DNA of 64,000 nt from Cyanobium sp. CZS48M. GTDB lineage: Bacteria; Cyanobacteriota; Cyanobacteriia; PCC-6307; Cyanobiaceae. The notes under the pieces were generated by a model. It ran no database searches. It was given only the letters and a program-made list of their open reading frames with translations, and was not told the origin of the DNA. The translations under genes and the position numbers were made by a program. Below are positions 34,940-37,755 of this stretch, in pieces. How positions within the stretch are numbered: position 1 is the first letter of the stretch; each line of letters starts with the position of its first letter. The DNA lies in the NCBI GenBank assembly GCA_030373145.1, contig JAUCZK010000002.1, forward strand, positions 62,001-126,000, read 5' to 3'.

Positions 34940-35746
<807 letters not shown>

Positions 35747-36877
35747 TCAGTTGGTCATCGCTTCGACCCCCTCGAGGGCGGGGCCCAGCAGCTGGGCAAA
35801 GCGTTGCAATTCCTCCTTGCTGCCCATCACCACCAGCAACTGGCCCGGCAGCAGCCTCACATCGCCATTGGGGTTGGTGATCAGTTTCGGGGGAAGGGGA
35901 GCGCTGGTGATGCCGCGGTAAACCGAAGGGTTGTTTGCCTTCGGGGCGGGCATACGCACGGCCAGCACCAGGGCCCCGGTGCGCCGGCGCAGTTCCAGCT
36001 CGGCCAGGGTGCGGCCGTTGAGATCGCCCAGCAGCTGGCCGTTGCCGCTGAGCTGAAACTCCTCCACCTCGCACTCCGATCCAGCCAGCAGGTCCATGAA
36101 CTGAACCGCCAGGGGGCGCAGGGCCGTGGCAGCCATGCTGCGCCCCCCCGCCACGTAGGGACTCACCACCTGATCAGCGCCGGCCAGCCGCAGCTTGCGT
36201 GCCGCCTCATCGCTGTCGGAGCGGGCGATCAGACGGCAGCGGGGCGCAATGCCCCTGGCACTGAGCACCACATAGAGATTGGCGGCGTTGTTGGGCAGGG
36301 CCGCCACCAGGCTGCGGCAGTGGTGAATGCCCGCCTCCATCAGGGTTTCATCGAGGGTGGCATCGGCCTGAAGCACCGGCAGGCCCTGCTCCTCGGCGGC
36401 CTCCTTGCGGCCCTGATCCATCTCCACCACCAGCAGCGGCACGCCCTCGGAGGTGATCTGATCGGCGATCTCCCGGCCGATGCGGCCATAGCCGCAGAGA
36501 ATCACGTGGTCATTCATGGTGAGAAGCCAGCGGCGGAAGCGGAGTTCGCGCATCCGGCGGAAGTAGCCGGAGTCGGTGAGTCCCAGCAGGCCCTGGATCG
36601 CCACCTGGACCACCACCAGGCCCCCGGCGATCGAGAGGGTGGTGACCACACGGCCGGCCGCTGAGAGGGGCTGGGTGGTGCCGTCGCTCCAGCCCAGGGT
36701 GGTGAGGATCACCAGCACCATCCAGTAGCAGTCGCCCCAATCCCAGCCCTCGGTGTAGCGGTAGCCCGCCGCCGACAAATTCACCAGGGCCACCAGGGCG
36801 ATCAAAGGGGACCGCCAGGGTTGGCGGATCCTGGAGGAAGGAGGCCTGGGGCGGCGACGCCTGGGGGGTGGAGGCAT
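35747..36877 (-). CDS. potassium channel protein with RCK (TrkA-N/TrkA-C) domains
   Basis: A 376-residue channel of the two-helix-plus-RCK type. Residues about 20-40 form TM1, 50-62 the pore helix, about 64-70 the selectivity filter and 75-95 TM2. The Rossmann RCK domain follows (VILCGYGRIGREIADQI near residue 128) with a TrkA-C-like part near residues 270-370. The filter reads TTLGWSDG instead of the canonical TxGYGD, which is unusual. It is preceded on the same strand by the GT9 gene with a 29-bp gap. Confidence 0.8.
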   Translation of the reverse strand: MPPPPRRRRPRPPSSRIRQPWRSPLIALVALVNLSAAGYRYTEGWDWGDCYWMVLVILTTLGWSDGTTQPLSAAGRVVTTLSIAGGLVVVQVAIQGLLGLTDSGYFRRMRELRFRRWLLTMNDHVILCGYGRIGREIADQITSEGVPLLVVEMDQGRKEAAEEQGLPVLQADATLDETLMEAGIHHCRSLVAALPNNAANLYVVLSARGIAPRCRLIARSDSDEAARKLRLAGADQVVSPYVAGGRSMAATALRPLAVQFMDLLAGSECEVEEFQLSGNGQLLGDLNGRTLAELELRRRTGALVLAVRMPAPKANNPSVYRGITSAPLPPKLITNPNGDVRLLPGQLLVVMGSKEELQRFAQLLGPALEGVEAMTN

Positions 36878-36906: not shown

Positions 36907-37755
36907 TCAGCCCAGACCGAGGGCCTGCAGGACGTCAGCAACATCGAGCTCGTGCAGGGACGTTGCCACTCCGAGTCCTTGTACACCAGGGCGGGAGGGC
37001 AGGCTGTCGCCGCTGCGACCCAGGGCCACCAGGGGTGTGCCGCTGAGCACCGCCAGTTCTGTGGTGACGGGATCGCTGCTGAGCACCACGTCGGCGGCCG
37101 CCACCTGGGTGGCCCGCTCTAGGGGGGTGCCGTCACGGCGGGCCTGCTGCACACGCAGCTGGGGCAGGCGGGCACGGATCGCTTGCGGCAGCTCCTGCCA
37201 GCGCTGGGCCGGCCAGTCGGCTGTTGCCGCCGTGGGTTGGGGGTCAGGGGCCAGCAGCAGCAGCGGGCCCTCGCCTGCCGGCGCAGCAGCCACCGCCTGC
37301 TCCAGGGAGGCTTGGGGCAGGCTGAGGCGATAGCTGGCGGCGTCGAGAGGCACGCCGATGGGCCGCAGCCAGGCTTCAAGGGTCTGGTTGGGCCATCCCG
37401 CCTGGCGGCTGACGGTGGTGGTGGCGGAAAAACCACCGGTGGCGATCCGGGTGGGGATATGGCCCAGCGACAGCATCAGATCGATGGGCCAGCCGCTGCC
37501 CAGGTTCAGGCAGACCTGGAAATCGGGTTCGCGCACTCCTCCCAGCAGGTTGGCCCAGTCGGCCAGGCTCACCCCCCCATCGAAGCTGTAGCCCAACACT
37601 TTCTCCACCGCCGGCACGAGCTTCCAGGCCGCCCCCACCCCGGCGGGGCAGGCCACCTGCACCTGGGCCTGGAGCTTGGCGGCCACGGCGGCCACGGCCG
37701 GAATCGCCTGGAGCTGGGTTGCCATGCCGCCCGGGATCAGAACAAGAACACGCAT
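36907..37755 (-). CDS. GT9-type (heptosyltransferase-like) glycosyltransferase
   Basis: A 282-residue protein of the ADP-heptose:LPS heptosyltransferase superfamily, short compared with RfaF/WaaC (about 350). MRVLVLIPGGMATQLQAIPAV matches the N-terminal Rossmann start, and VVLSSDPVTTELAVLSGTPLVALG matches the C-terminal donor region. It probably adds a sugar to an envelope glycan. A TACAAT hexamer at 37788-37793, 32 nt before the ATG, may be its -10. Divergent from ispD. Confidence 0.8.
   Translation of the reverse strand: MRVLVLIPGGMATQLQAIPAVAAVAAKLQAQVQVACPAGVGAAWKLVPAVEKVLGYSFDGGVSLADWANLLGGVREPDFQVCLNLGSGWPIDLMLSLGHIPTRIATGGFSATTTVSRQAGWPNQTLEAWLRPIGVPLDAASYRLSLPQASLEQAVAAAPAGEGPLLLLAPDPQPTAATADWPAQRWQELPQAIRARLPQLRVQQARRDGTPLERATQVAAADVVLSSDPVTTELAVLSGTPLVALGRSGDSLPSRPGVQGLGVATSLHELDVADVLQALGLG

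Follow-up and report, generated by a model that had tools for sequence, protein, structure and literature searches.

The second glycine of the selectivity filter counts as part of a signature shared by nearly all K+ channels, and hERG mutants that lack it cause disease. In known channels, this position needs the backbone freedom of glycine. In Cyanobium sp. CZS48M, a channel gene carries serine there instead. The gene lies within the window analysed here, that is, the whole stretch of 64,000 nucleotides from contig JAUCZK010000002.1. How did such a filter arise in a wild bacterium, and what does it do to the pore that carries it? The gene, its parts and its immediate neighbours are located in the window as follows.

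35747..36877, minus strand: 2TM-RCK channel gene, 376 aa (open reading frame with ATG start, translation, Pfam)
36749..36814, minus strand: first membrane helix, residues 22-43 (AlphaFold2 model)
36698..36739, minus strand: pore helix, residues 47-60 (AlphaFold2 model)
36674..36703, minus strand: selectivity filter TTLGWSDGTT, residues 59-68 (translation and orthologue alignment)
36572..36661, minus strand: second membrane helix (TM2), residues 73-102 (AlphaFold2 model)
36158..36505, minus strand: RCK (TrkA_N) domain with GYGRIG motif, residues 125-240 (Pfam, 1.2e-31)
35783..36016, minus strand: TrkA_C domain, residues 288-365 (Pfam, 8.9e-9)
34940..35707, minus strand: downstream neighbour, fabG-like (label from sequence), adjoining channels of both filter types
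36907..37755, minus strand: upstream neighbour, glycosyltransferase-like (label from sequence), adjoining channels of both filter types

The translation of the open reading frame at 35747-36877 (minus strand) contains ILTTLGWSDGTTQPL. Judged by its domains, the window channel is a 2TM-RCK channel of MthK/GsuK architecture, with an Ion_trans_2 pore (33.7 bits against a cut-off of 22.5) and an RCK region formed by TrkA_N (109.8) and TrkA_C (35.6), and it is probably tetrameric. A preliminary description of this locus had recognised both the two-helix RCK channel and the serine in place of the second filter glycine, and both are borne out. Among solved structures, sequence comparison brings out GsuK and MthK as the nearest, and fold comparison MthK and GsuK; TM-scores in the latter are low, since the single-chain AlphaFold2 model arranges the domains differently. 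This model, built on 54 sequences, has a mean pLDDT of 70.8 and values of about 54-63 around the filter; being also a single chain, it is uninformative on pore geometry. It places residues 61-72 in a loop between the pore helix and TM2, and a canonical homologue modelled with AlphaFold2 has the same helix plan and is no more informative on the pore. Residues 44-54 (GWDWGDCYWMV) are invariant in alignment A1 and in all 46 distinct insertion-type sequences described below, as are the TM2 glycines G85 and G86 in A1.

The filter itself reads T59 T60 L61 G62 W63 S64 D65 G66 T67 T68, with Ser64 encoded by AGC at 36686-36688. It departs from the K+ channel signature T-x-G-[YF]-G-[DE], and it does not match the TVGDG type of filter that characterises NaK-type non-selective channels. 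The serine is placed at the second glycine because the acidic residue after it is the counterpart of MthK D64. Relative to canonical orthologues, the window filter combines this serine with two extra residues. All seven of its closest relatives, at 92-97% identity, have G-W-S-D-G-T-[T/S] here, which speaks against chance as well as error.

The aligned sequences indicate that the outer filter is rebuilt, beyond the change of one glycine. A residue profile compared 46 distinct insertion-type sequences with 91 canonical ones. At the second-glycine position, the insertion type has S in 45 and T in one, against G in all 91 canonical sequences, a group defined by that residue. The first filter glycine and the filter threonine are kept in all 46 insertion-type sequences, and T occurs at +6 in 44 of them, while the two x residues of the motif G[FW]SDxxT vary. 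Immediately before the first glycine, the insertion type has L (36) or M (10), where canonical sequences have I (84), V (6) or L (1). Immediately after it, F (32), W (13) or L (1) stands against canonical Y (64) or F (27). The acid following the second-glycine position is D in 46/46, against E (87) or D (4). Pore-helix position -4 is L in 46/46, against I (78), L (10), V (2) or T (1), and the pore-helix tyrosine that aligns with that of MthK is present in 46/46, against Y (47), L (37), F (6) or I (1). Among the 53 Ser-plus-insertion rows of the full set, the serine codon is AGC in 45 and AGT in eight. The preliminary description had anticipated altered selectivity or conductance, which is a reasonable expectation; its picture of one changed glycine was too narrow, as it missed the two-residue insertion after the filter, the replacement of I/V by L/M ahead of the first glycine, and the shift from E to D after the serine.

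A channel homologue was detected in 362 of 399 genomes of the order (E 1e-30), and the channel is kept by most small picocyanobacteria. The best 80 of 104 confirmed candidate loci in picocyanobacteria comprise 39 with Ser and the two-residue insertion (G[FW]SDxxT), 39 with a canonical filter (GYGE/GFGE), one GYSE without the insertion and one GLTD with it. A wider set adds 70 loci of the order, chosen to span genera, giving 152 rows that take in the window and its own duplicate (L003) as well as some genomes twice: 94 canonical, 53 Ser with insertion, three Ser without insertion, one Thr with insertion and one Arg. Trees and profiles used the 141 distinct sequences (91 canonical, 46 with insertion, three Ser without insertion and one Arg). 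Among the homologues sampled in the order, the most divergent carry Gly and lack the insertion (one has Arg), and Gly is therefore taken as ancestral within the order. The preliminary description proposed checking whether GWS is conserved among homologues, and held that homologues with GYGD at this column would refute the feature. Conservation of G-W-S-D holds in the seven closest relatives, and that of G[FW]SD across many genera, but about half of the 80 homologues are canonical or of another type. Gly at this column is found even in sister species, yet the feature stands, since G[FW]SD is itself so widely conserved.

The surroundings of the gene are largely common to the two types. At 64 of the 80 loci, fabG or a glycosyltransferase adjoins the channel, including 34/39 canonical loci, 29/39 Ser-plus-insertion loci and the one Thr type, though not the GYSE. 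The remaining 16 have neither. These 16 loci (L032, L036, L046, L052, L055, L058, L059, L063, L065, L067, L071-L073, L077, L079 and L080) share none of the tested neighbours with the window copy, and their channel gene therefore sits elsewhere; ten are Ser-plus-insertion, five canonical and one GYSE. Several individual loci are also unusual. Serine without the insertion (GYSEV, GFSEV) occurs in L080, a metagenome assembly, and in L091 and L154, apparently through three separate changes. One divergent homologue, L115 (G114), has Arg at the second filter glycine (GYREV), and its relative L114 reads GYGEV but has a stop inside. L082, titled as a Bifidobacterium breve MAG, holds a clearly picocyanobacterial groL-fabG-channel-ispD block and is probably mis-binned or mislabelled.

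The idea, also raised in the preliminary description, that the filter is suited to marine salt is not supported by this distribution. The insertion type is not seen in the small-genome genera sampled, which we take to be marine lineages, and its carriers include BlackSea3 and LacPavin records. Two of the small-genome genera sampled carry Ser without the insertion. To judge by titles, some of the Cyanobium and Synechococcus records among the carriers of both types come from inland waters. In six small-genome members (L106, L107, L108, L109, L111 and L113), the channel frame is shortened to about 241-276 aa, and four of the six are also interrupted by stop codons within the matched stretch, a pattern that looks like ongoing loss of the C-terminal RCK part. 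Potassium channels of freshwater picocyanobacteria are reported to be distinct by habitat (PMC9361551), in passages that do not mention this filter.

Trees indicate that the filter has switched many times within the order. Of 60 genomes searched, 55 yielded rpoB, and a DNA tree was built from these with the window added and one row lacking a typed filter excluded. On this tree, the Ser-plus-insertion state requires 12 changes (11-12 over bootstraps), at least eight of them forced by starred branches. A single clade for the insertion type (27 of 55 rows) was rejected (AU p 0.002). Whole-gene transfer is likewise not favoured as the source of the mixed pattern, as the channel tree without the filter columns still needs 11 changes, again with at least eight forced by starred branches. 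Three sister pairs have opposite filters on both trees: L058/L071, L127/L126 and L015/L119, the last pairing being without a star on the rpoB tree.

Comparison of L058 with L071 places the difference in and around the filter. In 15-codon windows, the two differ at 0-13% of residues outside four exceptional windows, at the N-terminus (40%), the C-terminus (27%), the filter (47%) and just after the filter (20%). At the DNA level, the changes cluster between the end of the pore helix and the beginning of TM2. In a triple test whose donor and block were picked after seeing the data, L058 resembles its sister at four sites and insertion-type L055 at 17 inside this block, against 205 and 37 sites outside it (p 6.7e-10). 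Applied to L127 and L015, the triple test gives a less marked result (p between 5e-4 and 0.5, depending on the donor). A recombination scan covered four opposite-type sister pairs in both directions, with 25-codon windows and 148-149 possible donors. The best window starts between codons -16 and +5, counted from the first filter glycine, in six of eight scans, with best p values of 9e-7 to 1e-11 that are uncorrected minima over many windows and donors. The exceptions are L015 (sister L119), with a peak at -35, and L055 (sister L046), with a peak at +264 (p 1e-5). In same-type control scans, 13 of 16 gave no donor below 1e-5; the three that did were all away from the filter, one reaching 1e-10 at the N-terminus. 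With these exceptions, the scans support a local switch of a filter block of about 25 codons.

Such a switch could result from recombination or from convergence. When only third codon positions are considered, the filter is not the best window in the seven triples tried, and convergence under selection is therefore still compatible with the data. The evidence nevertheless leans towards recombination, because the same two-residue insertion recurs together with S-D-x-x-T. Elsewhere in the protein, pore-helix residue 58 (I/L) tracks filter type in six of eight independent pairs, and residues 55 and 80 do so in about five, while none of 656 tests of site covariation with filter type survives correction.

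Replacement of the second glycine extends beyond the order. A pore profile built from 22 insertion-type sequences only was searched against 291 genomes across the class. Of the 161 matched, 35 represent the window's own family, and 115 pores could be typed from 114 of the other 126. The second-glycine position holds G in 76 (75 by pattern and L338 read by eye), S in 13, M in 11, A in eight, L in four and T in three; glycine is thus absent in 39/115, a count in which such a profile may favour Ser-bearing matches. Non-Gly members occur in 15 of 23 families outside the order. Glu follows the variable position in 115/115, where the search pattern also allowed D, N or Q; the first glycine was required by the pattern, and its constancy is not independent. 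On a full-length tree of 54 proteins chosen to span types (20 from outside the order and 34 from within), the Gly state changes 12 times, at least 10 of these being forced by starred branches. All 20 outside relatives checked are full-length (34-41% identity over 312-381 columns), and the three tested with Pfam have the same domains as the window channel. These sequences mark out a cyanobacterial T-x-G-[FY]-x-E 2TM-RCK branch in which evolution can replace the second filter glycine. Full-length similarity places the window channel in this branch, but it and all 46 insertion-type sequences have Asp rather than Glu after the variable position. Two of four plasmid-borne relatives outside cyanobacteria keep GYGD. 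Plasmid-borne 2TM-RCK channels of Rhodococcus (L410, TVGFREV) and Hymenobacter (L412, a divergent GGGYEVL) lack a normal second glycine, and the phenomenon is therefore probably wider than cyanobacteria.

Other channels of the same genomes behave differently. The Kv-type channel of the window genome, used as a control query against the 39 genomes with a non-Gly 2TM-RCK channel, found a match in 34, and in the 30 loci returned from 30 genomes glycine is kept in every one (TTVGYGD 15, TTVGFGD 14, TSVGYGD 1). Four other channel genes of the window genome keep glycine as well (TTVGYGD, STVGFGD, GSIGYGAL and GSIGYGVL). Two of its channels, L004 and L005, are Kir-like by sequence label and have A or V after GSIGYG, with no acid.

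The reading that we favour, with a probability of about one half, is a working RCK-gated and probably tetrameric cation channel in which a changed outer filter alters selectivity or filter gating. Dehydrated ions would still bind at the inner filter (T, x and the first Gly), and the outer site at the second glycine would be widened or reshaped; Ser at this position, like the Met or Leu of some relatives, is expected to change the shape of the outermost site. The pore would then be less K+-selective, or its filter gating altered. In MthK, the acid after the second glycine (D64) is reported to interact with Y51 of the pore helix, and widening at the second glycine to accompany filter inactivation in MthK and Kv channels (PMC10274084), so that this position plausibly tunes filter gating. 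The window channel retains a Tyr and an Asp that match Y51 and D64. We infer both conduction and altered selectivity or gating from sequence, since a pore that is conserved rather than decayed favours a conducting channel with one or other of these changes.

A serious but less probable alternative is an ordinary K+-selective channel, in which Ser-Asp-x-x-Thr, together with the two extra residues, makes up an outer filter equivalent to the canonical one and the change is near neutral. Repeated switching between related species means that the two filters could be nearly equivalent, which counts against a changed function, and opposite types in the same gene of sister species, within a gene context common to both, fit this well. 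The occurrence of G, S, M, A, L or T at the position in relatives likewise suggests tolerance. A coordinated change at five or more positions, nearly exceptionless in 46 sequences, looks selected, however, and the Kv-type channel never varies there in the 30 genomes that also have a non-Gly 2TM-RCK channel.

It is improbable that the pore conducts little or nothing and that the protein is a nucleotide-sensing or regulatory membrane protein. In A1, no variation is seen in the pore helix, the filter Thr, the first Gly or the TM2 glycines, which would be unexpected for an abandoned pore, and with one match in the genome at E 1e-30 there is no close wild-type partner to poison. Precedents do exist: hERG G628S is reported to traffic with normal conduction lost (PMC11974032), and SynK with GAGD, in which the filter Tyr is changed, is described as non-conducting (PMC2853561). 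Escape from a channel-binding phage or toxin, rather than ion selectivity, is a still more remote driver of outer-mouth diversification. It would account for a local swapped block at the predicted outer mouth and for the variation of the two x residues, but the core S, D and T show no diversification and are fixed, as is the pore-helix change from I to L. The channel gene itself had no match in phages, a search that says nothing on phage or toxin binding. Finally, sequencing error, which the preliminary description had allowed for, is refuted as the source of TTLGWSDG by the seven agreeing relatives (92-97% identity), and frameshift or pseudogene origin is as negligible for a type common to 53 rows (45 distinct sequences).

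These channels form a widely kept family in which the second glycine has been replaced repeatedly (by Ser, Met, Ala, Leu or Thr). Natural pairs of orthologues whose main difference is a short filter block, such as L058/L071, lend themselves directly to experiments on the role of the outer filter in selectivity and inactivation. A more ambitious and rather unlikely version of the favoured reading is that one channel gene toggles between GYGE and G[FW]SDxxT by exchange of a cassette of about 25 codons between species, that the second glycine is dispensable in the family across cyanobacteria, and that the rebuilt allele is weakly selective or Na+-permeable; if this last were true, ion selectivity would be a swappable trait in wild bacteria. 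A Ca2+-dependent channel of Synechocystis has reportedly been the subject of a paper. No paper was recognised as describing this filter change in the open-access literature, judged mostly by title and with most subscription papers outside its scope.

Among known channels, hERG G628S, which turns GFG into GFS, also has Ser for the second filter glycine. It is a disease mutation (long-QT) of a voltage-gated channel without an insertion, whereas the window serine is fixed in wild species. In plant HKT class I (SGGG), a natural Gly/Ser filter difference has been linked to Na+ selectivity (PMC7918770). HKT proteins have four P-loops per chain, with Ser in the first only, whereas the 376 aa window protein has a single P-loop and falls outside the Trk/Ktr/HKT class. 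Bacterial Nav/Cav filters read TLESW, with TLEGWVD in CavMr and TLEDWTD in NavPp (PMC7041947). The window TLGWSD shares their T-L-x-W-x-D look, but the channel has two helices only, with no filter Glu and no voltage sensor, and its insertion-type relatives mostly have F (32/46) rather than the Nav/Cav W (13/46). PF00520 matches only another gene of the window genome, and the helix directly after the filter that Nav channels have is absent from the AlphaFold2 model, whose filter region is poorly predicted. Among the best 60 of 158 solved-structure matches to the pore profile are K+ channels (K2P, MthK, BK and Kv) and none named Nav; some are named only 'Potassium channel protein' and are probably NaK constructs.

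Closer likenesses are found among 2TM-RCK channels. GsuK (2TM, tandem RCK) shares a TTLGF-type filter start and the RCK (phmmer 3.5e-22), but its alignment falls into two RCK stretches, and its second glycine is intact (GFGD). Cyanobacterial 2TM-RCK relatives (TVGFMEV, TVGFAEV, TVGFLEV, TVGFTEV and TVGYSET) have replaced the second glycine in proteins of similar length and domains, but they lack the insertion and have Glu (115/115) where the window channel has Asp. MthK, a Ca2+-gated K+ channel that ranks among the top matches by sequence as well as by fold, has the same plan of two helices, a P-loop and one RCK with TrkA_N and a C-terminal lobe. Its filter is TVGYGD, against TTLGWSDG with two extra residues in the window channel, whose GYGRIG motif suggests a nucleotide rather than Ca2+ as ligand.
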